Below are positions 4,538-62,690 of a DNA stretch of 64,000 nucleotides, in pieces; positions within the stretch are counted from its first letter, which is position 1; the number at the start of each line of letters is the position of its first letter. Source of the DNA: Mesostigma viride (taxonomy: Eukaryota > Streptophyta > Mesostigmatophyceae > Mesostigmatales > Mesostigmataceae). The translations under genes and the position numbers were made by a program. The stretch lies in assembly GCA_009746045.1 (NCBI GenBank), contig RPFO01000026.1, forward strand, positions 4,886,649 through 4,950,648. Reading direction: 5' to 3'. The notes under the pieces were generated by a model. It had not been told where the DNA came from and ran no database searches. It saw nothing but the letters and a program-made list of their open reading frames with translations.

Positions 4538-4608
4538 AAAACCTTACGTACATAACCACATCACTAAAAACAAAACGCAAGGCAACACATCAAGCAACAC
4601 AACCCACC

Positions 4609-5207: not shown

Positions 5208-6372
5208 CCCAGCAGCGCCGGCGACTGCTGGCAGGCTGGCGCGCACGAAGGATTGAGTGGCGCTGAGCGAGAATGCAGTGCCGCTCCTGTTGAGCAAGTT
5301 CATGCTGGAGGCAGTGCTCCTTGGGATGCTGGACTATGCGGAGAGCGTGGGAAGGAAGTCCATCCGTGCGTCGATAATGTTGACGATGCAGGGGGGCAGC
5401 ACAGCCAGCGGGGAGAGGCGCATGTTGATCCTATAGATGGCTGGCATCCTGGAAACAATCAACACGGAATTTGGCTACTGGGCAACGCCACGCTCCGATG
5501 TGATTCTGGAGCTGGCAGCAGCCGAGTACCTGGCGAATTACCTGATCAGCGATTGATCACGGCGTGTCAGCTGGTGGCTGTGGGGTCGACGGGCTGGATT
5601 AGGGCACTCCGTCGGCAATGCTGCCATTCCAGGAGGGTGGGGCAATGCTGGCGTCTCCGGCAGTCCGGGCCGCGATGAGCATGGGGAAGCTTCACAACAA
5701 ACTGGAGCAGGGCCCTGGCAAGAAGGGGGAGGGCGGCCCATCCAAAAACAGCCATAAGGGCATACATAAGGAAGCGGTGCCCTCTTCCACTGGCTCTTCC
5801 AGCGCCGCTTCTAGCTCGAGGTGGCAGGTGGCAGCGGGTATGCTCAGGCCGTAGGCGCGATAGGATGCGTCGAGCGTTGAATGCGCACATACTAGCCTGG
5901 CAAGCGGTTAGGGCTTTAACCTGGATGGGAGGGGAGGGGCGAGATCCGCCTGCTGTAGACTCAGCCCGTGTGCCCGGGCAACTGCAGCAGGCGGCCCTAG
6001 ATGGGATAGAAGATGCTTGCAGATCCTATGTATGTATGGTGGTTCCATAGCAGCGATGGTACATAGGATCTGTACGAGGACGGGGGTGAATACTGTACGT
6101 ACGCTGAAGGAGCCCCTTACGAACAATTAGTAGCCGCACGCTTGGCCTTTCCTGGTCCGGGGGAAGGCGGCCAAGTGGATGTGCTGAACTTACTCCCCCC
6201 CTCTTGGGAAGCAATTTTGAATGATGAGAGTAAGATGGTACGGAGGCTGAGCAGATCTTGCAGAAGTCGATGCCGATCTCGCGGGGGTGTAGCATGGAGG
6301 AGTTCGCGCGGGTTTGCACGGTGTGTGTGGAGAGGGGGATTTAGGGTGGATTTTTTTTAGGAGGAGCCACCT
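5208..6372 (+). other. F1 degraded spacer between gag and RT
   Basis: No frame stays open for long. A Lys/Ser-rich segment around 5680-5850 and Arg-rich pieces around 6140-6360 may be decayed gag C-terminus or the N-terminal part of the polyprotein, but the frames change too often to follow. Nothing independent of F1 is visible. Confidence 0.5.
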
Positions 6373-7950: not shown

Positions 7951-8426
7951 CGCTCGGTGACGTGCATCCCACCCCTGGGCCTGAGGGGGCGCGACGCCCT
8001 CAGGACTTGGCACTGTTGGAGGGCACAGTGAACCATGTTTCTACCTTGCCAGCGTATGTACCAGCCCGCGGTGGCTGTTTATGTACGTGGCGTGGGCGCC
8101 GCCTAGCCCCGTTGACCCAGCTGACGCAGTAGCCATTTCCTGTTAGTGGATTTCTGCTGTCTACCATGCCAGATGTGGGAGGGGGCGTACATACCTTATG
8201 CCAGCACGCCAAGGCCTGTCTGAGCCTGTACTACTGTTCAGGGGTTCAAACCCCGACATTGTTCGCAATTGAATACTAACGGACCGCCTGCTATGTAGCA
8301 GGATGGCAGCGGCTTGATCCGGCTGTCAGCCCTCCACCTATGCATAAGCCGGCTGGCGCCTCTGCTATTTCACTGCCCTGTTGCTAGTTTCCCGTTGACA
8401 GGTGCATTTGAGTGCGTTGATTATTC

Positions 8427-9098
8427 TTGCTTTCCAGCAGTTTACGCATTAGCGAGGCGCTTGGGTTGCGGGTTTGGGATGTGGCCAATCCTGGCCACCC
8501 CCTTCTCGAGCCGGGGCCCATGGTCGGTGCCCTTCAGTGCTGCGCAACCCCAATATTGCGCATGCAGGGGGCGGCCCAGCACGTCCTCGTCCGGGATCCA
8601 CTTTCTTTGTGGCTCCTGCGACGTCTGACGGCTGGCCAGCCCCCGGATGCACCTCTTTTTGCGGTTTACATACAGTATTGTACAGCCAGGCTAGGCAGCA
8701 GTCCACGGGACGCTGTGCAGGCCCACATGGACATCCCAGGGATGTTTTCTTTTCACAGCCTCCGGCATGGGGGGGCCACGCACGACGCCACCACTGGCGA
8801 GTCCCCGGAGGCCATTCAGCTGTGCGGCCGATGGGCTTCGGCCCTCTCGGTCAAGCGCTACAGCAAGGTCAAGCAGCTGTACTGTACATTGGCCTCCACC
8901 GCAGCCTCCATGGCCGCAGCATGGGGCGGGACATTCCGCCAGCCCTCTGGGCTCAGGCCCTGGGTTTTGACCCAGCGCCTTTTCGCGCCACTTCGGTGGC
9001 GTCGAGTTTTGAAGTCTTCCAGGTTTTATCTCTCGTCTTTTAGCTATCAACTGACCTCACCTTTGCGTGGGAGGTCAGGGGGGAAATGGTTTATGTAA
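8427..9098 (+). pseudogene. F1 tyrosine recombinase (catalytic domain)
   Basis: The integrase-type enzyme that inserts the circular DNA copy. The first catalytic Arg lies in LRISEALGLRVWDV near the start of the open frame. The box-II signature is FHSLRHGGATH (His-x-x-Arg), followed by CGRWASALSVKRYSK, which supplies the Trp and the nucleophilic Tyr. All four key residue types (R, H-x-x-R, W, Y) are therefore readable in one frame. The N-terminal DNA-binding part, which should precede 8427, is not continuous; the open frame begins only about 20 bases before the first Arg motif. The ATG at 8427 is the first in the frame and probably not the real start. With a broken RT upstream, activity is unlikely, although this domain itself is open. 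Confidence 0.85.
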
Positions 9099-24057: not shown

Positions 24058-24281
24058 AGTATATATCAAGGAGACAACCAGCGCAGGCCAGAAATCGGGA
24101 GAATCCAGACCATGGTACATAACTTTTACATCCGGGCATGAAATTTGGCCGGGTAAATTGCAGTGGATGCGCCTTTTGATGACGAACACGATGATATAAT
24201 TTTCAGCCGCCATCGCCCAAGATTTAGCGCAATATCAAAAAACGCAGCGCAGGCAGGGTTCGTATTTTCCCGGAACCAGCT

Positions 24282-25480
24282 ATGGCAGAAACTCCGTCAA
24301 CCGCCTCCCATACTCTCTCCGAGGGGGAAGCTTCAGCGCCCAACACGTTTACGCAACTAATTGCAGATGCGGGAACCATTGCGACGCAGCCCCGGGCCAG
24401 CGAGGCAGCCATTACCGCCTCCTCCAAGCGGCTTTGCGTCAACCGGGCAGCCGACGAGATGGATCGCCAGGTCCCTTTGCCACCGTCTTCTCAACCCAGC
24501 GAGGCCACCCCCATTGACGACGACGACGACGACGCTAACGACGCTGAGTTCGACCCAGCATCCTTCATGCCTGGCCAGGTTGTCGACGAGCAGCGGTTCT
24601 TTTCGCTTACCGCCGAGCAGGCGCAGGCTATCCTGCGCCACCTGCACGACAACGGCAAGGAGATATATTTTCCTTACGCGTCTGGCGGGACCATTCCAGT
24701 GAACGAGCTCGACGAATTGGACGAGCCACAGCTTCGACTTTCTGTTTTCTTGAGCCACGCGCAGGCCCCTTGCCTCCGGGCACTCTTTGCCGCTTTCAAG
24801 GACGCCGAGCACGGCACCGCCAACACCCCCGATGCTTCCCCGGAAGCAGCAGACCTGCACAAGCTCAATAAGAAAGTCGCAGACATGGCTGCCCAACTCG
24901 GCACCTTGTCCACCGCTATCCGTCAAGACACTGCTGAGCTCCGCTCCAGCATTGCCGAGGTCAAGGCCGCCCTGACCAGCCCGCCCCAACCAGCCGCTCC
25001 CGCACCGGCCACCAGCTACGCTAACCAGTACAAGAACAAGGGGTCGCCTGCCGACCCCGGCAACTACAGAGGGGTATGCATTCAAAGTGCCCCCCTCAAG
25101 CTTCTTATGCGGCTCATCCTGAACCGCCTGCGCACGGCCCTGGACGGTCACCTCAGCGAGACTCAGCACGGCTTCCGTTCAGGTCGCAACACAGTACAGG
25201 CGCTCTTCGCTACTCGCCGCCTGGTGGAGGAACTGCAACGCCTTCAGCCTGGTGAGTCCCCTTTGCACCTTGTGCTGGTGGACTTCATCAAAGCCTTCGA
25301 TTCGGTTTTCTGGCCTGCGCTTTGGGACATCCTCGAGTTGTTCCGGATCCCCCGCCCCCTGATTGCTGTCATCCGCAACCTGTATGAAGGGTCCACCACT
25401 TCGGTGCGCACTTCTTACGGGACCACGCCCCCATGCCCTTTACAGACGGGTGTGTGGCAGGGCTGCGTACGTGCTGTCGC
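24282..25480 (+). pseudogene. LINE ORF1 fused in frame to RT N-terminus
   Basis: Residues 1-245 look like a LINE ORF1 protein: Ser/Thr-rich start, a run of seven Asp (about residue 78), then a coiled coil at about 190-235 (LHKLNKKVADMAAQLGTLST and following). At residue 246 (near 25020) it passes without a break into RT: DPGNYRGV, HGFRSGRNTVQA, then DFIKAFDSV (motif A, catalytic Asp) and GVWQGC (motif B). ORF1 and RT are normally separated by the endonuclease domain, so a large deletion joined them in frame. About four extra bases at 25468-25475 (GTACGT) then throw the frame off just after GVWQGC. Confidence 0.8.
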
Positions 25481-26461
25481 CCTACCTGTTCATTATTGTT
25501 GTCGAATACGTAATGATTCAGGCACGCAAGCGATTTGCCCGCATCGTGGGCAGGGAACCAGGAGTGCTGGTTGCTAACAAATTCTGGCATGGCGGTGCGG
25601 ACACGGAGATTCGGCAGGCAGACATCATCTACGCAGACGACACCACCCTCTTCGAGGACACTGAGCACGTGCAGACATGGCTTGACTGCCTGGCTCTCGT
25701 GGCCGGTGCAGTGGGGCTTGAGGTCAGCAAGAAGACAGAGGCCCTGGCGGTTGGGCTCACCAACTCACCGCCGCCCCTCTATCTCCTAGACGGCTCTCGA
25801 GTCCAGTATCGGGACCGCGTTAAGCTGCTAGGCAGCCTGCTCCCCAGCTGCGAGGTCGATGTGGACCATCGCATCTCCCTCGCCTGGCACGCTTTACGCC
25901 AGTACCGGGCCCTGTGGCGCAAGCCCCTGGGCAAGATCGAGAAACAGGACCTGTTCAAGGTCCTCGTCCTTCCTGTTCTCACGTATGGGGCCGAGACGTG
26001 GACCCTCACCACCGACCTGGCCCGCAAGCTGGACGGCGCGGTCACCAGCATGCTGCGTTCCATTTTCAGAGTAGGATATGCTGCTCATGTCCGCAATGAG
26101 GACCTGTACCAGGGCATGCCCTATATCACCAGCACCATTAAGCAACGACGCCTGCAGCTAGTAGGGCACCTAGCTCGCACCAACCAGGTAGACACCTCAC
26201 GTGGCCCCCCCGCAGGACTGCGACCAGCCCAGCCTGGCCGGCACCTCCTGACGTGGGCTGGGCCCAGTGATGTTAGACGCCGCAAGGCCCGCACTTTCAA
26301 AGAACAGCTAGTAGAGGACATGGGGGGCCTAGGCATCTCCGTGATATGGAAGAAGATGATGGACAATTAAGGCCAAGTGGGCCCAGGTCATAGAGGACAA
26401 CGAGCCCCCCCCAGTGGGGAAGCGCCCGCGTGTGCAATCCCGTTGGAGGCACGCCAGATAG
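25476..26461 (+). pseudogene. LINE reverse transcriptase, C-terminal half
   Basis: Continues the RT after the frame break with LSPYLFIIVVEYV, the catalytic IIYADDTTLF (motif C) near 25630, then LGSLLPSCEVDVDHRISLAW, LPVLTYGAETWTLT and RRLQLVGHLAR, a standard LINE RT thumb series. The frame meets TAA at 26368; one base away another frame continues with KAKWAQVIEDNEPPPVGKR and ends at TAG 26461, which looks like the true C-terminus. The first ATG of this frame, at 25363, lies out of register over the previous segment and is not a start. Confidence 0.8.
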
Positions 26462-42077: not shown

Positions 42078-44221
42078 ATGTCTGCTGCACTCCGTAAAAC
42101 TTGGAAAAATCGAGTTTTGCGCGTGCCTGGCGAGGTTTTCAAGACCCCAGATGTCACGTACACAGCCACTGTCACAAATGTCAGGCACGGGGGGGGCAGG
42201 GCTGACTATTCAGTCGAGCTTCTTTTCGATGATGATGGCGAGCACCACTGGTTCGAGATGGCAGTGGTCACAGAGTGGTGGGCAAGCCAAGGCTACCGCA
42301 ATTTTAGGGAGGAAGGCGACAATACCGACAGTTGCAGCCAGGCGGAATCTAGTTCCGGAACTGACAGTACCAGCAGTGACGAAGGAAATGCACAAGATAG
42401 TTCCAACACTAACGATGGAAACGATGCTGATGACGATGACGATGGCGACGACGAGCCTCGACCAAAACGCGGCCGACCTCCTGGCTCTCGTGGACGGGGG
42501 GCAGGCTCCCGAGTCGGGGCAGGGCCGGGGGGCCAGGCGGTCCGGAATGGCCAAGAAGCCAGCAACTTTGACTGGGGAAACGTCCATCTTGACAAGCCAC
42601 CTGCGGAAGACATCGCCCCTGCCTCGATGAGACTCAGATGCGAGAAATTTACCGCCATTGATTACTTCTGAACTCGCTGGTGACCCTGGAATTCATCCGC
42701 CAGATTGCGGGCTGGACAAACGAGAAGGCTGCCCAGCGTCGTGCCAAGCTTGATGAGGATAACAAGCAAGGGAGGCGCTGGAAGGATGTGACAGAATCAG
42801 ATATCCTTCGTTTCATTTCTTGCCTGCTCATCATGTGCATTCATTGGCATAGGGCCCGGGCATATGCTACTTATTGGGATAATGACCCTCTGGTTGGCAA
42901 TGCTTCCATCAAGCTCATCATGTCTCTCTTTACATTTGAGAATATCCTTCGCAACATCATGGCTAGGAATCCCACCGATGCGAGGCCAAGCAAGCATGAG
43001 GAGGGGTATGATCCGCTGTGGCACGTGAGGGTATTGTTCGAGCACGTGCAGGTGAAGCTGCTGCACAACTTTCAGCCCAGCGGGGTAGTGGCAGGTGATG
43101 AGAGCATGTGCTTTGACAGGGGCAAGAACCCCGTGCGGCAGTATATGAAGGACAAGCCTTCACGTAGTAGGTGGGGCACCAAGCATTGGGCACTAGCATG
43201 TGGGAGCACGGGCATTCTCATTTGCTTCATCCCTTACCTGGGCAAGGGGCAGTGGCCGATAGGCGCACCCTTGGAGGAGGACATGGACTTCTATGTGAAG
43301 GGCGGAGGCTTTGGGGCAGCATGCGTGGCTAGTATGGTGCACTTGTGCCATCATATCTTGCATGCCGAAACCACGGTGGTCGCAGACAACTTCTTTAGCA
43401 GCGCCAAGCTTGTTGAGTGGCTGGCAGAGAAGGGGTACACCTTTGTGGGCACTGTCAGGCGTGATCGCACGTGCTATCCCCGTGACATCAACATCACCGA
43501 GGCGGAGGCCAAGAGCAGGGGCATGACGCGGGGTGGCATGTTGCATAGGATGCGTGCTCTGCCATGTGGCATGTTGTCACTGCCCTCACCTACGTGGACA
43601 GCAAGATGGTCCGCTTCTACAGCTCACGCCATGGCAGCCCTGCCGAGGACGTACCCCGTGGTGCAGAAGGAGCGGTGGAACAAGGGCAAGGGAGAGTACG
43701 AGATGGTGGACATTCCTGAGATCAAGGAATTCTATGACACGTACAAGAGTGGGGTGGATAGGGTTGACCAGGTGGCAGCGAACCACCACTTCGAGATAGT
43801 AACCAAGCGCCCATGGCAGCGCAACTTCTTTTGGATACTGAATACTGAGGTGGTGACCGCTTACAACTATCAGCAAGTGGCCTTCCCGGACAAAGGACCA
43901 TTCAGCCAGAGGGAGTTCAGGGCTGCCTTGGCCAGGGAGCTGTTAGAGAAGGCAGAAGAACTGGATTCCAAGCGTAGGGAAAGCACGCTGGGCCGCAAGG
44001 GCCGGTGCTGGAGAAGGCCCTTTGGCGTCTTTGCCGAGGCTGCCAGCCATACACCGTGGGTGTCTGACACGCTGAACAGGTGTGCTGCATGCAAGGCGAA
44101 CAGCAACATCAAGAGCAAGTGTAAAGAATGTGATGTGCACCTGCACGCCGAGCCCGGCTGCTGGGAGCACTGGCATATGGCACGCCAGGGCAATTTTGAG
44201 CGCTGCCGGGGTGATGAGTAG
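42078..44221 (+). pseudogene. piggyBac transposase, three frame breaks
   Basis: Cut-and-paste transposase of the DDD type. The first part (42078-42671) has a compact beta-rich segment (VPGEVFKTPDVTYTATV ... HHWFEMAVVTEWW), loosely Tudor-like, then an acidic run and an AT-hook-like KRGRPPGSRGRG. A one-base shift near 42665 leads to the main body (42680-44221): GDESMCFDRGKNPVRQYMKD (first Asp), VVADNFFSSAKLVEWL (second Asp), YKSGVDRVDQ (third Asp), and a C-terminal Cys/His domain (CAAC...CKECDVHLH..PGCWEHWH) typical of the family. Between about 43563 and 43655 the frame is shifted and then restored; the missing VDSKMVRFYSS segment, the family's conserved W-x-D-x-K region, is readable in another frame. 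The three catalytic Asp are kept but the protein is probably inactive. Confidence 0.88.
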
Positions 44222-50495: not shown

Positions 50496-51647
50496 TCCAT
50501 AGGACTGGATACAAACGACGTGTTAATGCTGGCAGTGTCCCTATGACTCAGTATGGAATCTGCCATAAATGAGAATGCCAGGCCCTGCACCACTGCTGCC
50601 ACAATCTGCCATATTGACTTTGCCCCTCGCAGCCTTGATCATGATTGCAGCCACTAGTACCTGCCCCTCTTCATCCTTTCTATTATAGCACCAGAAACTG
50701 GGGCCACATTTGGCAGCATCGCCAGCTGATGTAGCTGGCACCTGTCACAACAGCAAGTGCAATTAGTATCAAAGAAGGCAACCTACTGCTCACCATTGCT
50801 ATCCATCACTGCCACGATCAATCTGTCACTACCACTTGCCAGAATGTCATGACCTGGTGTGTTGCCACGGAAATCTGAATGAAGGGCTTTCACCACAAGC
50901 CTACCCCAATGTGTTGCTTTGCACACTACACCAATGTTGGCTACACCCTGCCACCTGCCACATGAATTTTGCTTCCATCATGCAGCAGTAGCATCACAAC
51001 CTCAATGCTAGACCAAAACATATATGTGCATGACCGATAGCCTTCATGATCGCTGCCTGGTGCCACTGGCCATACTACTGCCATCTGTGCACATTACTTT
51101 CTACCATATGTGCCACTCTCTTCTGCATCACTAGGTCCCACTACTGCTGCCTAATCTGCCTGCTGCCAGCACCTTCGCTGGCATCAGCTCATGGCATGCC
51201 CATGGCCACATCCTCCATCTGCCGTGCATAGCCCATGCTTCACTAGGCATTGTTTGGCTAGGGTGTGATGAACAACGCATAAAAAAATGCCCATGATACC
51301 TTGAAAATTGTTTGGCATGAGAGCTAGCTGCCACTTGTTAATGTGCTAAAGATGTTAGATAGCAACTGCAAGCCAACAGTGCGCAGCCATGCGAGCCACC
51401 ATTTGACTTGCCAACTAGTTGCTCTCTCTTATACTCAACACACACCACACTTGCAATGTCGGTAGTTCCAACTATTAATGCATGTCCATGATGAAGTGCG
51501 TGCGACATTAATTAATTAATTAAGTAGTTTCCATCATCATTCCGTCATCATTCCGTCATCGCGACTATGGGAAGTGCACCACCCTTATGCTGGCATCTGC
51601 CACCCCTATAGTGACCCTATAGTGACCGCGGCCTAGGATGGGTCTCA
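50496..51647. other. Gene-free interval
   Basis: CTGCCAC/CATC-rich sequence with imperfect repetition of GCCACTA and TGCCATC words, an ATTAATTAATTAATTAA run at about 51508 and a duplicated CCTATAGTGAC. No gene seen. Confidence 0.55.
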
Positions 51648-51679
51648 CCCTAAGCCCTAAACCCTAAAAACCCTAAACC
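51648..51679. repeat. Short interstitial telomere-type repeat
   Basis: CCCTAA, GCCCTAAA, CCCTAAAAA, CCCTAAACC: about four units of the complement of TTTAGGG, the telomere repeat of plants and many green algae. Confidence 0.65.
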
Positions 51680-51785
51680 ACTTGCAAAAACAGAAGTGCC
51701 CCCCTGCCACCACTGCTCACCAGGTTGTGACATTTAGGCTGGCATCTGTCACCACCCCGGCAGTTGTGATGGTGTGTTGGGGGTG

Positions 51786-52390
51786 TGACAAGGATGGCGA
51801 AAAATTGCACGTACTTACTCTTATATAAAGAACGCCCAATTTTTCGCCACCCTGCCACCCCTTGGCGCGGGTCATAGGAGGTGTTTGTCAAGGTGTGAGA
51901 GTGATGGCGAAAAATTGCACGTACTTACTCTTATATAAAGAACGCCCAATTTTTCGCCACCCTGCCACCCCTTGGCGCGGGTCATAGGAGGTGTTTGTCA
52001 AGGTGTGAGAGTGATGGCGAAAAATTGCACGTACTTACTCTTATATAAAGAACGCCCAATTTTTCGCCACCCTGCCACCCCTTGGCGCGGGTCATAGGAG
52101 GTGTTTGTCAAGGTGTGACAAGGATGGCGAAAAATTGCACGTACTTACTCTTATATAAAGAACGCCCAATTTTTCGCCACCCTGCCACCCCTTGGCGCGG
52201 GTCATAGGAGGTGTTTGTCAAGGTGTGAGAGTGATGGCGAAAAATTGCACGTACTTACTCTTATATAAAGAACGCCCAATTTTTCGCCACCTTCCCCCAC
52301 TGGCCGGCGCTGAGGTGGCGTGGGTTGTTGGATGTGGCGAAAAATTGCACGTACTTACTCTTAAGAAAAGACCGCCCAATTTTTCGCCAT
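51786..52390. repeat. 110-bp tandem array, each unit with a TATA hairpin
   Basis: The core starting GGCGAAAAATTG recurs at 51796, 51906, 52016, 52126, 52236 and 52336, a period of exactly 110 bases for the first five and 100 for the last. Each core is bounded by perfect 12-base arms (GGCGAAAAATTG ... CAATTTTTCGCC) around 29 bases including CTTATATAAAG; the last unit has lost the TATA. Between cores lies CCCTTGGCGCGGGTCATAGG. Units are nearly identical. It ends about 350 bases before the viral gene block. Confidence 0.92.
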
Positions 52391-52749
52391 GGCCTCGCAG
52401 GGTGAGGGAGCCGGCGAGGGCCGCGCGGCGGGGTGTGCAGAGTGTCATTTTATTACTCTGTGTAACCTCTGGAAACTCAGACGACCTATGCAAGAATCCC
52501 ACACGACCTGTGTCGATGCATAAGAGGTTTACTCTGGATTTTTAACCTGCAGTTAGCACTGCATTTCGAGACGAAATGAAAATTGTTTTCAACATGCATT
52601 GACGCGTTTTATACTGCATAAACGATTTCATTAAAAATTATAACACGTTTACATTCGTTATCAGCTCAACAAGAGCGAAATGGCAAGCTCGTTGCCGTCG
52701 TCAACAAGACGACAATCTACTCCTTGTCATTGGAGTGTCCAGTCGGGCT
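52391..52749. other. Junction between tandem array and viral block
   Basis: No gene or terminal inverted repeat recognised. An AT-rich part (52560-52660) precedes the 3' end of the first minus-strand viral gene. Confidence 0.5.
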
Positions 52750-53294
52750 CTACATAACGTACGAGGCGGACCGCTTTTTGTCGCCATGGCCGTGGGAGCT
52801 TGACGCTTCCTCGCGGCTCCTCTTCCTGCCATTGGAAGTGGCGGTCTTTGCGTCCTCGAAACCCTTCTTTGCCTCCTCCCATGCCTTGTAGAGGGCAATG
52901 GGGGAAATGCCTGGCTGGCGCTTGGACAATTGGAGAAGCCATTGAGGAATTCGTCAACCATCTTAACGCATCCGTCGGCTTGGTCGAGGCGAATCCACTC
53001 GCAGCGGTCCTCGACCTTCCTCGGCTTTGCCGCATTCTTCTCGTAGACCCACTCGACGCAAATTTTTGGCGTCTTGCGGTCGACATCGTCATATCCGGCG
53101 TCGTGAATCTTGAAGACCTCGCAGGTAGGTCTGGTGCCTCCAACAGCACCTTCGTTTCCGGAAAGAAGGGAGACCTTGTGCGTCAGGTGTGCGAGCTGGT
53201 CAGATATCTTTGTCTGGCCGTCCTCGAGACCATCGAGGATTTTTCCAAGCATTGCCAACGCCTTCTCGCAAGGCCCTGCGTTTCGGGAAGCCAT
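52750..53294 (-). pseudogene. Unknown PLV-block protein with coiled helix and basic tail
   Basis: Starts at the ATG at 53294 (MASRNAGPCEKALAMLG). Residues 10-50 form a heptad-like helix (ILDGLEDGQTKISDQLAHLT), the middle is mixed (KICVEWVYEKNAAKPRKVED), and after DEFL near 52935 the frame shifts by one base to QWLLQLSKRQPGIS, KAWEEAKKGFEDAK and a Lys/Arg/Ser-rich end (KRSREEASSS, DKKRSASYVM) closing at TAG 52750. The basic tail suits nucleic-acid binding or nuclear entry. No family recognised; membership in the viral block is inferred from strand and position. 53295-53641 holds no gene. Confidence 0.45.
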
Positions 53295-53641
53295 GGCTAC
53301 CGGCAGAGAGCTTGGCAACGTGAGATGCGTGACTTGCACGTGATTTTGCCTATTTGTGCACAATGTGCCAAGGTCCGTTACGTCTGCTGGCACGGCCTAG
53401 CTGGACAGGACGCGAAGGTGGCTGGACTTGTACAAGTGTCGAACTTGGCTAAATTTCGGAGCGATGCAAGTCTAAGGTGGCCTCTACCACGTGGCGAGTT
53501 CTGGGACGTGAATTTAGGTAAAAAGACTCGTAAGCGTGCGAGTAATCAACTGGGTCACTTGTCAAGCGCCTGAACGAAGATTCTAGAGTGTCCACGAGAG
53601 TGAATTTTCCGAAGCAACCACCCATATATAATTCATAGAAA

Positions 53642-54147
53642 TTACTTGCCATGGCAGGAACATTTTTTTTTCTCTAGTCCTCGGACTTTCTCGAAACGCA
53701 AAATTACAACGAATTTCGCCACAGCCGTTGGGACCGTGTAAGAATCATCACCAGCAGCCCTGTCGAGGTGCACGAGGCTTAAAGATAAACGACCACCATT
53801 CCGAAACAGATATGGATCAGTCAGGTTCATATAATTGTGATCGTTGACGCATGTGTAAGTCGTAGCTACAGCCCCACCAGAGCAGAATTCTGAAAAAAGC
53901 ACTGCGTGCTCATCCAAATTGTTCTCGGCCCCTCGAAAGTTAGGCGAGGTCACGCCAAGTATACTCTTCCCCGCTGCTCCCTGGATGTTAACTAGATAGG
54001 CTGCATGCCCACCTCCTCGCCAGTCCTCGTCGATGATGGGGCTCTCGGGTCTGGCTTGATGACAAATTCTGCCCGTCTCGTTGTGGCGTCAAAGGAGAGT
54101 GCCTTGTTGCTGTCTAGTAAAATCTGATAAAAAGTGGGATACTCCAT
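53642..54147 (-). pseudogene. Unknown PLV-block protein, possibly structural
   Basis: ATG at 54147 (MEYPTFYQILLDSNKALSFD), about 30 residues, then a one-base shift near 54050 into ESPIIDEDWRGGGHAAYLVN, followed by an open frame to 53642. The body is beta-rich (SILGVTSPNF, GGAVATTYTCV, KFVVILRFEKVRG) and ends in a basic Cys-containing tail. The closing VVILRF strand resembles the last strand of single-jelly-roll penton-type proteins, but this is weak. TCTATATATCAC about 15 bases upstream of the start is a possible TATA box. Function unknown. Confidence 0.45.
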
Positions 54148-54200
54148 GCTTTATTGTGATATATAGAAGAGATATTTAGTTCTTGTCTTGCATCCTATGT

Positions 54201-55328
54201 CTATGGGGGCGGTGTTGCAGGAGTGCCCCACTTGGCCACGAGGTACCCGCGGATCAGCTCCAACTCGGCGGAGGTCTTGGCGGTATTGTAGATGAGGATC
54301 TCGCCGATCCACCCGTCAAAGGCGCGGACTGCGTTAGTGGTATCGCCACCAACTATGAGATTGCCTGTGTACGTTTCGGGATTTGACCCGGCAGTTGCGT
54401 TTGCGGTACGCCCGTCGAATCTGGTAGTGCAAGTGTTCAATACCGTGTCGATCGAAAGCGCGAGGACATGCTGCTTGTTGTCGAAAAAATTAGGTCTTGA
54501 TGCCATCGTGACAAATATCTGGGTTGTCCCAGGACCCCGTGTCGTGGCTACGACGTTAGTCGACGCCACCTGGTACACCATGGCGTTCGATCTCACTGTT
54601 GTGCTTCCTATCATGTAGCCTCTGATGACGTCCGTGGTCCCGGGGTTGTTGGTATCAGGGTAGGTAGCGTCGTCAGCTGTTTGGCGACCATCACCATGCA
54701 CGACTGGTCCCGATAGATCCCCAGAATGTAGAAGGCGAGGTCAGAAGTCCCGAGCGGAGGTTGATGAAGCGGAGGGACGTCTTCCCGTTGAGCTCGGTGG
54801 TGTCCAGAATGGGCGTCTTCGCGGAATTGGACTGCGTTAAGTGATATCCCGAGGCCAGGTTCTTCTTGTCGTTCATCCGCAGCACGTCCCCGCCCGCGGT
54901 GCTCTGGACGGCGGTCCCCGTGGTGTCGCTGAACAGGGTGCTGCCGTCCGACGGGTCGTACCACGCGTACAGCGCGGGGTCGGCGGGGTCGTACGAGTAC
55001 GTGAACGAAAGCGTATTGGAGGCCGCGTTGCCACTCCCCCACGATGCGTCTATCACCGTGTTTGCACCACGTTTACAGTCGTTGAGAAGTTGGCCATAGT
55101 TGGAGTGACGTCGAACGTGTAAGAGTTTCCACTTCCCAGGAGATTGGAGGCCGCCCCATTGGTAACGGTGATGTCGCCCAACACAAAACCAGTTACAGGC
55201 CTGTTAAATGTGGCAGTCACGGTCACTGGAACAGCAGTAGGCGTTGGGCTGCCAGTCGTGAGGGTTACAGTATTCTTGGCACGCCTCTTCCGCGTGAGTA
55301 GTGGGCAAATGCTATAATCAAACGACAT
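54201..55328 (-). pseudogene. Ig-like plus LamG/lectin-like surface protein
   Basis: Probably a virion spike or host-adhesion protein. From ATG 55328: short basic start (LLTRKRRAKN), then an Ig-like beta-sandwich of the bacterial type (VTATFNRPVTGFVLGDITVT, YTFDVTPTMANFSTTVNV). A one-base shift near 55055 leads to DASWGSGNAASNTLSFTYS and a concanavalin-like module (LYAWYDPSDGSTLF, NGKTSLRFI). Another shift near 54700-54760 leads to its second half (FFDNKQHVLALSIDT, FDGWIGEILIYNTAKTSAEL, GYLVAKWGTP), whose WIGEI.IY and YL..KWG pattern is typical of LamG-like domains. The domain order Ig then lectin is a plausible fibre layout. The two frame breaks make a product unlikely as read. It lies immediately downstream of the capsid gene in the same direction. 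Confidence 0.7.
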
Positions 55329-55563
55329 CAAACTAATCTACAATATCATGACACTATTTTTTTGGATTTTTGTGGCAGTGGATATTGAAACTTACCAACC
55401 AGAACCGGCCCTTGTTTTGCTGGCAAAAGTGAGGCCCTGCCATCATCTGCTAGGTTTGGCGTATCGAAGATCAGTATCTAGCTGCCTATTTAAGGGGTTG
55501 GCAACTATCCTAGGGTCTTTGAGATAATCCATCGAAGACACAGTATACTAGAGAGGGAGATTT

Positions 55564-56778
55564 TTACAGCTGAACGACGGCCTGGCGACCCGCGCCGATG
55601 TCCATGCGCGACTCGGACTCGGCAAAGATGTACAAGACGAGGTCCGTGCCGCCTGTCTTGGAGACGCGGAGAGTGACGACGCTGGCCGTGCCCCTCAAGT
55701 CGAGACCTGACTGCCACCCCTCTCCAGCGGATGGCATGTTAAGGTGCGCGGCCATGGTGAAATGTCGCGTAGGCCAGTTCGCCTCGGTAACGGTGGTGCC
55801 GGCAGGAGCTCCGATGTTGCCCTGGTCACCAAAGCATGACAAAAGGTTTACCGATGCCTCTGTAGGACCCATAGCGTATGCAGGGGTTTGGTAGTTCCCA
55901 TTAATGTCAAATTGGAACGAAGTGAGATCATCGTCTTGGTGGTAGAACATAATATTGTTGACTCCGTTAGCAACGTCATCGCCACTGTCGACCTGGACTG
56001 CCAGGAGCTTAGAGGCGCTCATGGCGGATAAGCTAGCCTTCATGGCGTACGTGTTGCCAGCACCCAGTGACTGCTTCGTCGACGTCCACGTGTTCCAGGT
56101 GTATGGGATAGTCCCGCCCTGGGCCAACCGACTAGACAATACCTGCCCAATGACATCCTCTTGGAATCTGTACACTTCAATGGACCAGTAAATATCCTTC
56201 AGGGTATACGATAGCCCAGCCCCCGTTGCACTAAAAATAAGAACGCCGGCAGCTGCCAGTGTCACCCGTACTTCTATCGGCGGCATGAGAGACATGTCCA
56301 CAATCCTTGGATTGCCAGACAAGAAACCGATGAAGTGATCAATGCACCCTGGTTTAGCGTCGGCTTCCGCGATATTCGCCGTAGGGGCCGCTACAGCGTT
56401 GTCAGCCCAGCCAGCTGGCCTTTGAGTTTGGGTGTAGCTCGCCCCTCCGTGACTTGCGAGGAGGGTGTAGTACAACTGGTTGTAGTCGTTGATGTTGTCT
56501 ACTTGCTGTCCTCCAACCAAGACCTCCAGTCGCTTGATGAGGCTCGAGGTATGTGGGGGGAACGAGGCGAAACCGGCGGTTGTAGAGGTCCATCCCTTAA
56601 AATTCATTGTGAGCGTGTGCAAGTCGTAGAACCCGGACGTCGGCAAGCGCACGCTGATAGTCGACCCGTGACGCACGTCCGTGGCCGCAGAGGTCGTGGA
56701 GAGCTGAACCCTCTGGGTCGTGTGCTGCCCGAGGGACTTGATGACGTGTTGCATGCTGCGGGGGATAGCGCGATCCAT
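55564..56778 (-). CDS. Major capsid protein, double-jelly-roll type (PLV-like)
   Basis: 404 residues from ATG 56778, fully open. The first half has the strand pattern and motifs of Polinton-like-virus capsid proteins: STISVRLPTSGFYDLHTLTM (about 38-57), IKRLEVLVGGQQ and VDNINDYNQLYYTLL (about 86-115), IGFLSGNPRIVDMSLMPPIE (about 150-170), then YWSIEVYRFQEDVIG at the middle. The second half repeats the beta-rich layout (TYAMKASLSAMSASKLLAVQ, NNIMFYHQ, FTMAAHLNMPS, DLVLYIFAESESRMD). Length fits the family. In virions such proteins form the trimeric capsomers. Upstream on the minus strand is AT-rich sequence (AAAATTATCTAAG). The open frame among broken neighbours suggests either recent integration or chance. 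Assignment is from motifs and neighbours; a structure search would settle it. Confidence 0.78.
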   Translation of the reverse strand: MDRAIPRSMQHVIKSLGQHTTQRVQLSTTSAATDVRHGSTISVRLPTSGFYDLHTLTMNFKGWTSTTAGFASFPPHTSSLIKRLEVLVGGQQVDNINDYNQLYYTLLASHGGASYTQTQRPAGWADNAVAAPTANIAEADAKPGCIDHFIGFLSGNPRIVDMSLMPPIEVRVTLAAAGVLIFSATGAGLSYTLKDIYWSIEVYRFQEDVIGQVLSSRLAQGGTIPYTWNTWTSTKQSLGAGNTYAMKASLSAMSASKLLAVQVDSGDDVANGVNNIMFYHQDDDLTSFQFDINGNYQTPAYAMGPTEASVNLLSCFGDQGNIGAPAGTTVTEANWPTRHFTMAAHLNMPSAGEGWQSGLDLRGTASVVTLRVSKTGGTDLVLYIFAESESRMDIGAGRQAVVQL

Positions 56779-56806
56779 CAATGTATACCCATGTGCTTAG
56801 ATAATT

Positions 56807-57094
56807 TTACCGTAAGATCTCTCCTAGTAATGGGTTGTTTTGTCGGTGAGCCTCGACCCTCTTGTCAAAGCTCGAGAGTGCCTTCAACCCAGCGTCCGCG
56901 AACCCCGCGATGTTGCTGAGCACCGGCGTGTTCCTCACGATTTCTCCTGGCACCCCTCCAAAAACGGCGTCCGCGGTCTTCAACAAAGCCTGTGCCGTGC
57001 GCGCGCCATGGCCGACCTTTCGAATAGCATCCCCCGCAGCATGGCCGACTTTACGAACGACAGAGGCGACCTTTCCGAAGACTCGATCAAACAT
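56807..57094 (-). CDS. Small basic, amphipathic virion-type protein
   Basis: 95 residues from ATG 57094, fitted between the capsid and penton-like genes with gaps of 28 bases and 1 base. It starts MFDRVFGKVASVVRKVGHAA and repeats KVGHxA(G/R) in a long amphipathic helix, followed by Ala/Gly-rich hydrophobic stretches (LLKTADAVFGGVPGEIV, LSNIAGFADAGLKAL) and a polar tail. Small basic amphipathic proteins of this sort occur in the capsid modules of Polintons and adenoviruses (core or membrane-lytic peptides). I infer a virion role from sequence character and position; no specific family is recognised. Confidence 0.55.
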   Translation of the reverse strand: MFDRVFGKVASVVRKVGHAAGDAIRKVGHGARTAQALLKTADAVFGGVPGEIVRNTPVLSNIAGFADAGLKALSSFDKRVEAHRQNNPLLGEILR

Positions 57095-57095
57095 T

Positions 57096-57923
57096 TCAAC
57101 TTTGATATGGTATAGGCTGAGAAAATTTGTCGTCTGGGTCCTTGAGCGCGACGTACTTCAAGACCCGCGATATCTTGCGGGCCTCTGAGCCGATCACTTT
57201 CTGCGGCGAGATGCGGAAGGCTAGCTGAGCAACCCAGTCGGTGTACACGTCTATCGGCTGGTCATCCTCGTCCAACAACCGCAACGAGATGGAAGTTGGC
57301 GACTCTCTCAAATGCTGCCACAGAGGCTGGTACGACATCCACACTATGGGCTCCAGGTACTGCGACATCACTGGCAGGACGGCAAGGAGCCCGCCATACT
57401 GGGCGCCCTGGGGGGAAGATACCACATTCCCGCGGACTAGGTCGGTGTACACGAACACGGAGCTCAACCGACCGTTTGTGGCAGGTCTGTTCGAAGTGAG
57501 AGACGTCGTGGATTGGTATGCTAGTGGGAGAAGGCCGAGTACCCTTCCTGCGTATTCAGAGACCTGGATGGAAAACGCATTGGGAGATGAAAAAGTGTAC
57601 TTGCTCTTCGCGCGATCGTATGTCACCGTCATCCAGGGTCGTGCACTCGTAGTGCGTTCTCAATGTTGGCCCTGTTCTCCAAACACGTGTATGAGCCGTG
57701 GGGGAGAAATATCTCATGGGTGTCTGATGTTACTTGTGTGGTGAAAAGGAACTTGTTATTTCTCGAAGTGATGTGCGCTTGCTCGTATGGGACTGAGAGT
57801 AACTCGAGACCCACGTCGTGGAAGTCGTCCAAAAGGCCCATGGGGATGTCCCACGTGGGAGCAGCCAAGTCACCCCTCGCCCTGTCAGCAGTTCTAAGGG
57901 TCAAAAGGATCGTCTCTGAACAT
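57096..57923 (-). pseudogene. Penton/minor capsid-like protein, split by an ATGA overlap
   Basis: Two consecutive frames read as one protein. The upstream part (best ATG at 57923, itself separated by a frame change from the long frame at 57904) contains FTTQVTSDTHEIFLPHGSYT and ENRANIENALR. It stops at TGA 57629-57631, whose bases overlap the ATG at 57632 of the second part: TVTYDRAKSKYTFSS, SVFVYTDLVRGNVVSS, YGGLLAVLPV, PIVWMSYQPLWQHLRES and SISLRLLDEDDQPIDVYTDW. The order 'I-x-x-G-x-Y ... IN/IEN-A ... strand ... LLRVLP-like ... PIW/VPL ... I-x-L-x-D-x-x-x-x-P ... V-x-L-x-F' is that of the single-jelly-roll penton proteins of Polintons and PLVs. It sits directly upstream of the capsid genes, as in those viruses. 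The ATGA overlap is either a mutation or a stop-restart arrangement. Confidence 0.65.
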
Positions 57924-57937
57924 GGTCTTTCATATGC

Positions 57938-58168
57938 TTAGCTCTCTACCATCAACTCCGATTTGATTTCGGGTCTATTCAGAACTACCACTTCGCCCTC
58001 TTTTGCGTCCTTGAAAGCGCGTTTGAGAGCGCGCTTTCCTTTCCCAGTCATAGGTTTCTTTCTACAATACAAAAACGCGGCCTCGATGAACTCTCGTGGC
58101 ATGCTAGGGTACAGTACCATCCACTGAGAAATCTCGATCAGGTCAGACTCTGTGAAAATTGGATCCAT
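57938..58168 (-). CDS. Small acidic/basic PLV-block protein, unknown
   Basis: 76 residues from ATG 58168, open, 14 bases upstream of the penton-like start. The N-terminal part is helical and hydrophobic (FTESDLIEISQWMVLYPSMP), the middle is Lys/Arg-rich (RKKPMTGKGKRALKRAFKDA) and the end acidic. AATATTAT and TAAAAAATATC lie within 45 bases upstream. Its place in a tight row of open same-strand frames argues that it is real. No family recognised. Confidence 0.5.
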   Translation of the reverse strand: MDPIFTESDLIEISQWMVLYPSMPREFIEAAFLYCRKKPMTGKGKRALKRAFKDAKEGEVVVLNRPEIKSELMVES

Positions 58169-58197
58169 TGCGTAATATTATCACACACAGATATTTT

Positions 58198-58941
58198 TTA
58201 GGCACGGATACCCGTAGCCATTCCCAAGGCAGCTAACCTGGCTGCTCTCAACCTCTCTCTTCCACCCGAGCCAACTACCACTGGCTCACCGCCCACCGTC
58301 CTGCCTTGGGGCCTTTTATGAATTCGGTTGATATGAGTCGTCCTTCCGCCTTGGCTTTTAAAGTCCCTCGTGCATCCAGGCTCGGTGCACGGAAACCGGG
58401 CAGGTCCGGTTCCGGTATCTGATGTCAAAGGTGGCGCTGGCTCTCTAGGCACCGCGGTCTCACCGAAGACAAACATGGGATCCGTTCCCATTTCCGCCGT
58501 CTCCTTCCTCCCACTCGCACCACCTCGGTATATCTTCAACCTTCTACCGACCCTGAGACCTGTTGCTCTAGCGGGAGCTGCCGGTGGCGCCACTACAACC
58601 GGCTCATCGGGTGTTGTAGCAGCTGCCGTCGTCGCGCCGCCAGCCGCGGTTGCTGGTGTGGCGACGCTTACGCCACCTCCTAATGAGTTGTCGATTGGCA
58701 TCATCGGGACGCGAACCGGTTGCGCGACGTTGGACAGGGCCGCCAACAGAATCGCGTCTCTGAACCCGCGAGCTTCCGCTACTTTCCCCTTGGCAGCGGG
58801 AGCTCTGTGTGGTCGCGAGTTGATTACGATCGTGTTCTTGACGGAATTGGAGGACCTAGAGGAGACTCTTGTGGACGTCGTAGTGGTAGGCGCGCGTTTT
58901 CGTCCTGAGCGTCTGCCGCGTTTTGTTTTCCTTGGTGGCAT
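58198..58941 (-). CDS. Basic protein with C2H2 zinc finger
   Basis: 247 residues from ATG 58941, open. The first 25 residues are strongly basic (PPRKTKRGRRSGRKRA), then Ser/Thr-rich. Residues 55-80 form a helix (GFRDAILLAALSNVAQPVRV), a long Ala/Pro/Thr linker follows, and residues 183-212 hold one classical C2H2 finger: Cys-x4-Cys-x12-His-x4-His in FPCTEPGCTRDFKSQGG ... HINRIHKR. The C-terminus is Gly/Arg-rich. Likely a DNA-binding protein of the virus, either a genome-condensing virion protein or a regulator. TAAAAATCTCTCGCATAAG lies just upstream. An antisense frame (58370-59062) is a shadow of its GC-rich codons. Confidence 0.65.
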   Translation of the reverse strand: MPPRKTKRGRRSGRKRAPTTTTSTRVSSRSSNSVKNTIVINSRPHRAPAAKGKVAEARGFRDAILLAALSNVAQPVRVPMMPIDNSLGGGVSVATPATAAGGATTAAATTPDEPVVVAPPAAPARATGLRVGRRLKIYRGGASGRKETAEMGTDPMFVFGETAVPREPAPPLTSDTGTGPARFPCTEPGCTRDFKSQGGRTTHINRIHKRPQGRTVGGEPVVVGSGGRERLRAARLAALGMATGIRA

Positions 58942-58962
58942 GTTTACTTATGCGAGAGATTT

Positions 58963-59711
58963 TTATGCGCTCGTCCACGTGATCGTCTTCGAGACAGCCG
59001 TTGCGGCGGTCCCAGCTCGGGATTTGCAGAAGTTGTTGGATAGTGTGATAGGGGCAGAGTAGCCAGTTGGTGGGATCCGGTTTAAATGTAGCAGGATTTG
59101 GAACTTGCCATCATCTTCTGTGTACCCGGGGACGACGGACCAATAAGGCGCGAATATCAGGAATGGGAGCCCGGTTCCCACTGCTTTTGCCTTCATTCGA
59201 TAAGGGTTAGAGAGGTCGAGGATCGTTGGTAAGGCACCCTTGAAATTGACGCGAAGGTACACGTGCTCCAAGGACGTTGGCAAAGTGAGCTCGCTTTGGT
59301 TGGCTGGGTCGTGGAATGACAGCGTGGCCGTGGGGGTACCGTGCCATAGCTGAGGGATGAAGTAGTCGTACACAGGAGGCCGCAGACCGGGGATGGTGTG
59401 GGATATCCTCCGTGTCTCGTTGATGTCAGTGAACTGGGCGACGTCCAACCCATGAGTTGTGCCTATTAGCACCAATGCGTTGTCATAATACCCACACACG
59501 CTCGTATCGAGGACAAGAGCACCGGGTCCAGAAAGAGTGGGACTGAGCATAGTGGCAAATGTGACCGTTGCAAGGTGAGTGAGCCCACCAACGACTGGTA
59601 CAAACGTGTTTGCGAGGGTGGACGTGATGGTTACCGTGTTTGTCCCTGGGGTGAAGACATTTGTACCCCCTGCCCACAGTTGAATGAGAGTTTACCACCG
59701 AGGGAATCCAT
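58963..59711 (-). pseudogene. Beta-rich PLV-block protein, one frame break
   Basis: ATG at 59711 (MDSLGG), then a one-base shift within about 20 bases (GGTAAACTC) to TLIQLWAGGTNVFTPGTNTV and an open frame to 58963. The protein is dominated by short strands and turns (VTITSTLANTFVPVVGGLTH, GALVLDTSVCGYYDNALVLI, TPTATLSFHDPANQSEL, HVYLRVNFKGALPTILDLS), ending in KTITWTSA. About 240 residues. The composition resembles capsid or fibre proteins, but no motif identifies it. CATTATAATAAAGG lies about 30 bases upstream. Confidence 0.5.
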
Positions 59712-60282
59712 GGCTCTTGCAGGAAAGTTGCCTTTATTATAATGAGCAAACACAGACGTAAGTCACGTCAGGTCCGAGACTGCACGTAGCACAGACGACA
59801 GGGTCGTTATGCCAAGAGAGCGTGCACGCAAGAGCTAGCGTCCCGGTGCGACCAAGTCACACATATAGCTTGCTAGGGACGCGTCCAAGTATTCAGCTGC
59901 ACTGTCACAGCTGAACTGTCAATCAATTGATTACACAGACTCTGGCACGCCTTTGGCGCGCAGATCTATCAATTGTCCATACGGCTAGTCCTGTGGACCT
60001 ATCCGTACACTACTCAGCATCAATTGTCTCATAGGTCCTGGCGCGCTACAGTGCGCCTACCTATCAATTGACCATCAAGTCCTGTACAAGTCCTGTCAAC
60101 GTCCTGCGGACTATCAAAGTGACACTTGTACATCCTGTGTCCGTACGCGCCCACAGTGGCGCGCCGGGTACTGTCGGCACAGCCTAGGAAACGTCATAAC
60201 TTTTACGTTCCTTAACCAAATGAGGCGTTCAAGGTGCCGTTGGAAAGAGCGTAACAATCTCTATCCATCTAACGTAAATCCT
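59712..60282. other. Non-coding gap with TCAATTG and GGCGCGC repeats
   Basis: Separates the two halves of the viral block. It contains five TCAATTG words (ATCAATTGATT, TATCAATTGTCC, CATCAATTGTCT, TATCAATTGACC and one more), several GTCCTG words and three GGCGCGC-type sites (59958, 60041, 60160 regions). No frame is open through it. It may be a promoter/origin region or the junction of two original viral segments. Confidence 0.6.
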
Positions 60283-61533
60283 TTACGTTAACTCCCACTC
60301 CGCTCCAAAGATACATGTAACCTGCCCGGCAACATTGCTCACTTTTGTCGGGTCGAACCCCATGACAACGCTGAACTTCTTAATGGCTTGACGGGCTGGA
60401 AGTACTCCATAGAGTTGGACAGGGTACGTCACGAGTTGCGCCTCATAAGACGTTGTTGGGCACTTGACCACTGTGTGAATCATGCTTTCATCTGTCAACG
60501 TGAGCTCCTTGAACCATAGATTGGTAGCTCCAGGCACTGGCTTTGTTACGGAATACTTGCCGAAGATGGAACAGTTCTGCCCCGCGGTGCCCCGGTGTCG
60601 TAGTTGAATCACATCTCCTCCCTTTGTACAGGTCCCGGAGGGGTTATTCGTGAAGATGGAATCTAGCTCAACACCCGTGAGATCGTCTTCGATGTTCGCT
60701 ATTTCAATGGCGTGGTATTCTCCTGACAGGTGCATAACTGGCCGTAGGGGCATTGGCACGTATGGATCAATGATATCTGTTGGCGTGGATGTGAAAATCC
60801 CGGCGCTGTTTGAGATTTTTGTCATCTGACTCATCCTAGTCGGGAGTGTCTTGGCTATATACCTCTCGACTATTCCGTCAGACCGTCGTCGAAACGCAAC
60901 CCAGTAACTCAACTGCTGCCTCCACGAGCTATTGAGTGTGTATCGCACTCTTGCCTTGAGGTTGTCATACAGGTCGAGAGCATAGTCGGAGTGGTGAAGG
61001 TTGACCCCAAGCATGGCCCAATGGGTCGTTTGAGCGTTTCTCCAATTTTAGTGTCCGTCCGTAACGGCCGGATGATACTTTCCAGATAAACTCATCGTGT
61101 TCTCAGCAAATGACACAAAAGCGTCATTGCTTCCAAGATACATGCGAAAACACATGCAGAACGGACCGTCTATTAACTCGTTCGCAAAAACGACACACTT
61201 TGATGGTCGAGCCGGCGTGACTGTTTTTATCAAATAAAAGCTCGTGGGGTCATTCGGTTCAAAGTAGTACTTCGATGACTCTGCCTGAGAAGTCGTGAAG
61301 ATATTACGAGAAAGGACGTCTAAACTGCGAAGGGTGTCATGAGTCCCTTCTACTGTCGCGTTCTCCCCAGAGAGGTTGGGGTAGTCTCTTGGGCATGTGA
61401 AGCTGTAATAAATGTCCGTATTAGCGCTTTCGTGGTCGGTTGGTGTGTACGTGAAATAGTTAATCCCTGACAAGGTTGCCTTGACACCCCCCTCTATATG
61501 CAAGTTGAAACTGACTGGGTTTTCGAGGTTCAT
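60283..61533 (-). pseudogene. Large beta-rich protein, C-terminal part, in-frame stop
   Basis: One frame of 416 codons from ATG 61533 to 60283 interrupted once, by TAA at 61048-61050; the following codons (NWRNAQTTHWAM...) continue without frame change into MLGVNLHHSDYALDLYDNLK. Strand-rich throughout: GVKATLSGINYFTYTPT, RPSKCVVFANELIDGPFCMC, VPMPLRPVMHLSGEYHAIEI, GQVTCIFGAEWELT at the end. Its ATG overlaps the stop of the upstream part (ATGA at 61530-61533). Probably the second half of one large structural protein with the next entry. No family recognised. Confidence 0.5.
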
Positions 61534-62690
61534 CCCCCACCCAACGACAGGGTCCGCGCCAGTGCTGTAATTGCTATCCTCATTGGATTCGCGTATGATA
61601 CGAACTTGCTCTTTGATCGTATCCCACTAGAGGTTGTAGAAAGTTTCGAGACACCTACCATGACCCCCGCCTTCCTAGTCGTAAACGAGGTAATGGTAGA
61701 GTCATCGAAGAGGTCTAGCTCGTAACTCAGCCATTTTCCCGTGTCGGTACTTGTCAAGTTGGTAACTAGAGCATCCTCACCACGCAGTCCTCCGTTCACA
61801 GATAGCGTGAACCCGCCAATCGTCGGAGAGGCCTCTGTGAGTCGAACGTTGTTGATGTACCATCGCAAAGGTAGTTTTCTCAGGTAGGCGCTAGGGACGC
61901 AATCTTTGATGCCTTGTACTATCGAAAGCCCGGGGATGCATTCATACGTCTGAAAAGGGTAGGTGACTACTAGCCAAGTGACAGCGTTCAATGCATCGAT
62001 CCTGCCAATTCTCCAGCTAGAGAGTTTTGCATAGGATCGGGTTATTGTGAAAGAACGCCCGGTTAGCGCGGCAGGGCGGTTGTGGTCTCTCATGGTGGAA
62101 AACGAGATTTGCTCGACTAGCAAAGGCCGCTACCCGAAAATTGCGTCCCGCCATATCCAAAATACAGGTCCTTGAAATACGGGTATCCGACATCTGGGTT
62201 AACCAAGTTGTTCCCCGCTGCATAAAATGAGGACTGGTAGTCTCTCGCGACAAAATCGCAAATTCCGCTCACTTCTCCGCTGTTGACGATGTATGGCAAC
62301 TCAACATGCACGTCTTGGTCATTGATGACGCTAAAGGCATTGTCATGAGAAGCCGTCGTTCCATCTTCATGCATAATGTATGACAAATGGCGCGTTTGGA
62401 TTTGTCAGAGTAGTATAGCCGATACCCAAGTTGTCGAACAGAAAGTCTAGCTGTGTGCGGGTCGGTATTCGATGGCCTGGGTCTTGGAGCGTATCAGCGT
62501 CAAAATGGAATGACATGACCCCATTGCTCGGTGTCTCGATGTCTATGAAGCTGCTTTTTACGTACATGTTTTCGAATATGGCTTGGTCTTTAAATGTTGC
62601 GTGCCCGACCCTTGGAACGGGCGCAACAATGGAATAAATTATGTATTTTGGCTTGTTGTCATAGTCCGTAGGACTTTGGGACTCATTTCG
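61530..62690 (-). pseudogene. Large beta-rich protein, N-terminal part, frame-broken
   Basis: Coding character is continuous over three frames. 62690-62386 reads DNKPKYIIYSIVAPVPRVGH, SSFIDIETPSNGVMSFHFDA and LFDNLGIGYTTLT; 62386-62117 continues with SYIMHEDGTTASHDNAFSVI, VHVELPYIVNSGEVSG and KDLYFGYGGTQFSGSG; 62123-61530 with SFTITRSYAKLSSWRIGRID, RWYINNVRLTEASPT and KWLSYELDLFDDSTIT. The two internal joins lack an ATG, so they are frame breaks, not gene starts. The true start is uncertain: an ATG near 62680 lies in a different frame. With the entry downstream this would be a protein of about 800 residues, the largest in the block, perhaps a fibre, turret or second capsid-type protein. Confidence 0.5.

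Follow-up and report, generated by a model that had tools for sequence, protein, structure and literature searches.

Which element does the compact row of reading frames near one end of this stretch of the Mesostigma viride genome belong to, where does that element begin and end, and how has it come to vary among its relatives? The stretch analysed here, referred to as the window, comprises 64,000 nucleotides (nt) of contig RPFO01000026.1 of assembly GCA_009746045.1 (C887:4886649-4950648 of a 440-Mb assembly, which was searched for further copies). An earlier note, made from the letters alone, assigned positions 52750-62690 to the structural half of an endogenous Polinton-like virus (PLV). We find that the element is very probably an integrated PLV of a streptophyte alga that carries a virion module and a replication module and evolves by recombination. 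Endogenous PLVs are a known kind of element: they have been reported from protists, and one capsid group counts streptophytes among its hosts (Bellas 2023, PMC10120064; comparisons with this and the other cited papers refer to the parts of them available to us). The earlier note rightly recognised this one, and this copy is damaged. What is new is fine-scale exchange among close siblings, both of the core of the capsid gene and of the array in the terminal inverted repeats (TIRs) together with the replicase.

Virion module and extent of the element

The frames are close-packed on one strand, as had been described, and occupy the minus strand from 53.6 to 62.6 kb. The row is more than a chance arrangement because all six further loci whose capsid is 57-59% identical (L027, L028, L029, L030, L032 and L033) repeat these genes in this order over as much of the row as each 9.9-kb piece covers, and so does L031, whose capsid is 84% identical. 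The element spans from 51507 in the window to 28 kb beyond the window end and bears TIRs of ~930 nt at both ends, placed by comparison with other copies at 51507-52437 and, inverted, at C887:4977758-4978689 (98.7-99.5% identical). Both TIR tips are identical, and there is no obvious target duplication at the element junctions. With nested insertions removed the element measures ~18.5 kb, which fits the PLV description of TIRs and a size of ~14-40 kb. The left edge is thus the TIR tip at 51507 rather than 52750; at the other side the module stops at 62594, 62690 lying inside a long terminal repeat (LTR) retrotransposon. The suggestion that the element was partial or ran past the window holds for its extension, but not for its being partial: both TIRs are present, and nested transposons interrupt it.

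The 404-residue capsid protein (55564-56778, minus strand, from an ATG and intact) matched nothing significantly by sequence in Pfam, PHROGs or the PDB, and its profile matched no PDB capsid by sequence. A viral contig collection scanned with the protein, its profile and a distant profile gave no relative, nor did a phage collection. Three of seven relatives of the protein bear Mesvir1 gene names, which makes Mesostigma viride the most likely host. A profile of close capsid relatives, by contrast, reached five proteins of ~480 residues (E 1e-16 to 1e-20), and the alignment runs from the N-terminal motif as far as a common C-terminal GRQ. Prediction with AlphaFold on seven sequences gave a model of poor quality (pLDDT 51, pTM 0.44). 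Its 50 listed PDB fold matches are entries for Paramecium bursaria chlorella virus 1 (PBCV-1), iridovirus, PM2, PRD1/PR772, mavirus, faustovirus, Sulfolobus turreted icosahedral virus (STIV), melbournevirus, Emiliania huxleyi virus (EhV) and vaccinia D13, which we take to be double-jelly-roll proteins or capsids built from them. Among the 50 matches listed from a viral structure library, many are named major capsid protein and some are unnamed or otherwise named; proteins of Tetraselmis viridis virus S1, MELD virus and Qinghai Lake virophage occur in that list. TM-scores against structure matches are about 0.2-0.4. The earlier note had staked its reading on likeness of this protein to some double-jelly-roll capsid, and that likeness appears both in the ~480-residue profile relatives and in the fold matches, which support a predicted double-jelly-roll capsid at the level of fold class and not of fine details.

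Replication and packaging module

The A32-like ATPase and the TIRs that the earlier note had proposed looking for beyond 64 kb were both found just beyond the window. There, on the opposite strand, lie the ATPase (294 residues), a tyrosine-recombinase-like protein (420 residues), recognised from motifs alone, and a primase-helicase in three frames. The ATPase matches Pox_A32 (E 4.7e-4, under the curated cut-off) and a PHROG packaging family (2.4e-4), both weak but consistent with a PLV ATPase. Capsid relatives and fold, gene order, TIRs and this ATPase together support the assignment of the window frames to the virion half of an integrated PLV.

The primase-helicase contains a UL9-like helicase, with a match of 2.2e-21 in the window element. 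In L034 the replicase forms one frame of 1,162 residues (L034:45-3530), whose helicase matches Herpes_ori_bp (4e-21) and, in the PDB, origin-binding proteins of herpesviruses (9e-10), while motifs alone, similar to those of archaeo-eukaryotic primases (AEP), suggest a primase in the N-terminal part. A further match of the L034 helicase part, under cut-off, is to CyRepA1 (7.5e-29), a replication family of cyanobacterial plasmids. A second replicase found in the family is a D5-like primase-helicase (D5_N 2.1e-13).

Exchange of the capsid core

At least 104 capsid places occur in the genome, a lower bound in which one C1 gene is counted in two pieces; 99 are free of internal stops and 89 cover at least 390 of 405 residues. 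The genome searches scored the best candidates, namely 103 of 512 in the capsid search, 124 of 364 in a second search and 51 of 306 in a third. Copies that are ~99% identical across 3 kb are nevertheless 17-25% different in the central 900 nt of the gene for the capsid (~55760-56660). Compared with C968, the window copy differs at 19 of 2978 nt 5' of this core, 223 of 901 within it and 10 of 341 beyond it; the corresponding differences are 27/2978, 151/901 and 11/341 for C1468, and 31/2978, 151/901 and 12/341 for C1846. Copies with the window's own capsid allele (C1746, C1185 and C1989) show 7-9 differences in the 901-nt core.

Synonymous divergence (dS) against C1468 is 0.03 in codons 1-45, 0.5-1.6 in codons 46-320 and 0.16 in the last 84 codons, and the ratio of nonsynonymous to synonymous divergence (dN/dS) in the core is 0.07-0.16, L002 and L003 being left out of this comparison. 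High dS and low dN/dS in the core on a ~99% identical backbone indicate that recombination brought alleles shaped by purifying selection onto a shared backbone, so that capsid-core alleles have been swapped among near-identical elements. The spike gene holds a second, weaker variable stretch (82-86% identity between flanks of 96-98%). In C968 the spike query is unmatched at the spike position, where a different frame of 260 residues stands instead.

Terminal repeats and replicases

The left TIR of the window copy contains a 110-nt tandem array (51782-52389). This array also occurs in C2211, C1713 and C1412, in C335 at 77-98% and, weakly, in C1:945405 (about 81%); C1215 was assigned to the type from its tip alone. 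A 162-nt array takes its place in C1746, C1185, C1468 and C1989, with a diverged copy in C1846. The UL9-like replicase stands on the expected side and in the expected orientation at 37 of the 104 capsid places, 21 of them at a distance of 11.0-11.6 kb (chance 0.66), and is replaced by the D5-like primase-helicase in C1746, C1846 and C1989. All six testable loci with the 110-nt array carry the UL9-like enzyme and all three testable loci with the 162-nt array the D5-like one (p=0.012; C1412, C1185 and C1468, at a contig end or unreadable, fell outside the test). Without the weak and tip-only loci the comparison is 4 versus 3, or 1/35 by the same formula.

Among 41 places with capsid allele A, B or C, 17 have a UL9-like and 11 a D5-like replicase within 45 kb, 13 have neither and none has both; for this tally 5 of 63 class-D capsid places were entered and the D counts were unused, and a single D5 gene may stand behind both of two class-A places on C1579. 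Allele A occurs with the 110-nt array in C887 and with the 162-nt array in C1746, C1185 and C1989, and allele B with the 110-nt array in C2211, C1713 and C1412 and with the 162-nt array in C1468 and C1846. Because each allele is found with both TIR types, a four-gamete pattern, recombination is needed. Two replicases, each found with its own TIR array, adjoin the same virion module and assort independently of the capsid allele.

Telomere-type CCCTAAA runs of at least two perfect units lie ~140-150 nt inside 11 of the 12 TIR tips examined, in the orientation that they would have at the end of a chromosome (51648-51679 in the window copy), and the C335 tip has them in decayed form only. Such runs are not unique to these elements, an idea rejected on 21,858 genome-wide matches of a four-unit 28-mer (139 for the reversed control), including long arrays away from capsid places. 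CCCTAAA is no more than a candidate for the host telomere repeat, and it ends none of the six contig ends read; at one of them, the right end of contig C1 (L042), the repeats are TAGGGG-like and not TTTAGGG. The role of these repeats in the TIRs is a matter of speculation.

Alternative explanations

The family might form no virions and spread as a capsid-bearing transposon, its mosaics arising by gene conversion between resident copies. High copy number agrees with this explanation, as does the state of the window copy, broken in several genes and bearing three insertions, and genomic gene conversion would yield the same mosaics. However, almost all of the capsid places lack internal stops, capsid-core dN/dS stays near 0.1 across deep divergence, and relatives of the capsid (P0002, 78%) and of the penton-position protein (P0014, 74%) are each recorded under a 7,708-base contig of a different source, lgn, perhaps one and the same contig, of a virus outside this assembly. 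We consider the transposon-only explanation unlikely. Several observations nonetheless weigh against the PLV reading or parts of it. The penton-position protein has no PDB match, and its structure model, from two sequences, is unusable (pLDDT 32). The tyrosine-recombinase-like protein has no family, PDB or usable structure match, and the capsid model is of low confidence with TM-scores about 0.3. The TIR type was read at few loci, and the stretch of C1746 that was read showed no right TIR for the D5-type element. Formation of virions by the family is a prediction from its genes.

Assembly errors among repeats could in principle create mosaics in a repetitive family with many copies on small contigs, but more than ten contigs carry allele B and five carry allele C, and P0001, a gene model from another source, joins allele C to the same small protein and is identical to L031 at 393 of 393 residues, which makes such errors a very improbable cause. 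A virophage or a true Polinton/Maverick would have the double-jelly-roll capsid and TIRs in common with a PLV; against this, no protease, protein-primed family B polymerase (PolB) or retroviral-type integrase was found among the 18 viral proteins and pieces scanned, a scan of a broken copy with four small frames outside it, and we give this assignment hardly any credence. Fast adaptive divergence of the capsid core on its own, with no exchange of alleles, would suit the confinement of change to the middle of the capsid and, less strongly, the spike gene, but is extremely unlikely given that synonymous sites diverge too, far more than next door, and that the low dN/dS speaks against rapid protein change.

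Further genes and state of the window copy

The PLV virion module includes, besides the capsid, penton-position, small basic and spike genes, about eight more on the minus strand, and its genes are shared to varying degrees with other copies. Residues 1-154 of the frame at 52701-53393 are 97-99% identical in all five fetched copies that matched. A small virion-side gene (53642-53953, 103 residues) is 100% identical in five fetched copies and 46-49% identical in four distant loci, and the small basic amphipathic protein (56807-57094, 95 residues) is 98.9-100% identical in the five copies covering the whole gene and 37-53% in distant loci. Kept in the fetched copies and distant loci alike are proteins of 76 residues (57938-58168), 247 residues (58198-58941; basic, with one C2H2-like finger, zf-C2H2 E 0.13, under cut-off), 195 residues (58963-59550), 243 residues (60283-61014), 161 residues (61048-61533) and about 190 residues (61530-62123). 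The last gene, at 62117-62594 (frame 62117-62386), is the C-terminal part of one split by the retrotransposon; its N-terminal part lies at L017:61-387, and both fall within one 211-residue frame in L020.

Two proteins that the earlier note had listed stand in part. The penton-like gene (57096-57934) is in the expected place but is frameshifted here, with two frames at 57096-57904, and its label is suggested by place, size and conservation. It is one frame of 279 residues in L012, L013, L015, L021, L024 and L031, and a programmed frameshift was rejected on these six close copies, which read the gene in one frame. The spike-like protein (54201-55331) does have a lectin-like match (Laminin_G_3 2.2e-5, just under cut-off), but the gene is not intact, being broken into several frames. 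A gene model, P0006, fuses the capsid end with this spike-type protein.

Three insertions split the element. One of ~616 nt (59678-60293) fills the gap at 59.55-60.28 kb, touches the end of the 243-residue gene, has CCCAC repeated on both flanks and is missing from the other aligned copies; a 588-nt copy, 97% identical, at L024:1098-1685 in C1846 beside another element copy marks it as a member of a repeat family. The nested LTR retrotransposon begins at 62595, continues past the window end at 64000 to C887:4968502 and has 676-nt LTRs (99.9% identical) and a 5-nt duplication. The third insertion measures 2.1 kb (C887:4968966-4971100). With the penton-position frameshift, the spike in pieces, one gene split and the replicase broken, the window copy is a fossil, though its capsid frame remains intact; the genome has undamaged penton-position and replicase genes at other places.

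Outside the right TIR (L018 near 390), the sequence resembles that outside the C335 TIR (L029:1815-1856), possibly through a shared target or a neighbouring repeat. At G000:C1:7189354-7208354, inward-facing CCCTAAA runs 19 kb apart flank a class-B capsid place and resemble both TIRs of another copy. Elsewhere in the window we presume, by eye, a piggyBac-type transposase (519-residue open frame, 42662-44221), a reverse-transcriptase element with a recombinase-like part (4479-9098) and another that is like a long interspersed nuclear element (24228-26370).

Comparison with known systems

As in the PLVs described by Yutin 2015 (PMC4642659) and Bellas 2023 (PMC10120064), the element combines a double-jelly-roll capsid, a packaging ATPase, TIRs and a putative tyrosine-recombinase route, with no protease found. 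Unlike what the available parts of those papers describe, the Mesostigma element has a shorter capsid (404 residues), and its family pairs one virion module with either of two replicases and has capsid-core alleles on one backbone and telomere-type repeats in the TIRs. Cryptophyte PLVs have modular non-PolB replicases, including a primase with a superfamily 2 (SF2) helicase, and Laminin_G_3 fibres (PMC12220804); the two families share a large expansion in an alga, modular replicases, a recombinase (putative here) without target duplication, and Laminin_G_3. Replicase exchange was inferred there from conflicting trees, whereas in the present family it shows up among elements whose virion halves are ~98-99% identical. 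AEP-UL9-type fusions are known in mimiviruses, African swine fever virus (ASFV) and mriyaviruses (PMC11253617), and the present replicase resembles them in its N-terminal primase-like part and UL9-like SF2 helicase, here in a PLV and with the primase part recognised by motifs only. In the Cafeteria virophage/PLV EMALE02 the morphogenesis module was exchanged against a common remainder (PMC8547959); that element swaps whole modules, whereas here a segment within the capsid gene, and the TIR array with the replicase, are exchanged.

In the open-licence literature searched we found no report of a capsid-core swap in PLVs, of polintons or endogenous viral elements in Mesostigma, or of telomere repeats in PLV or virophage TIRs. 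Adenovirus hexon recombination exchanges the middle of a jelly-roll capsid gene while its ends are conserved. The likeness is one of working only, the host being unrelated.

Proposed mechanism and implications

For the PLV family we propose that linear DNA would be replicated from the TIRs, that the ATPase would package it into a double-jelly-roll capsid, and that the recombinase-like protein would integrate the element without target duplication. Elements that share a ~99% identical virion backbone would exchange capsid cores and replicons (TIR array and replicase); array and enzyme would change together if one crossover took place on the side of the replicase and the TIR was then copied to the opposite end. 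Going further, and with considerable doubt, algal PLVs may be a live recombining population of three cassettes, namely the virion backbone, the capsid core and a replicon of TIR-array origin and replicase, in which the telomere-type repeats serve linear viral DNA or telomere-linked integration. Human herpesvirus 6 integrates in a telomere-linked manner.

Endogenous PLVs have mostly been compared across deep divergence, with gene exchange read from conflicting trees. The tens of closely related elements in this single alga make exchange visible almost directly, both within the capsid gene and in the pairing of TIR and replicase. A streptophyte alga with about a hundred capsid loci thereby joins the hosts compared, and capsid-surface variation and the matching of origin and replicase become testable as drivers of PLV evolution.

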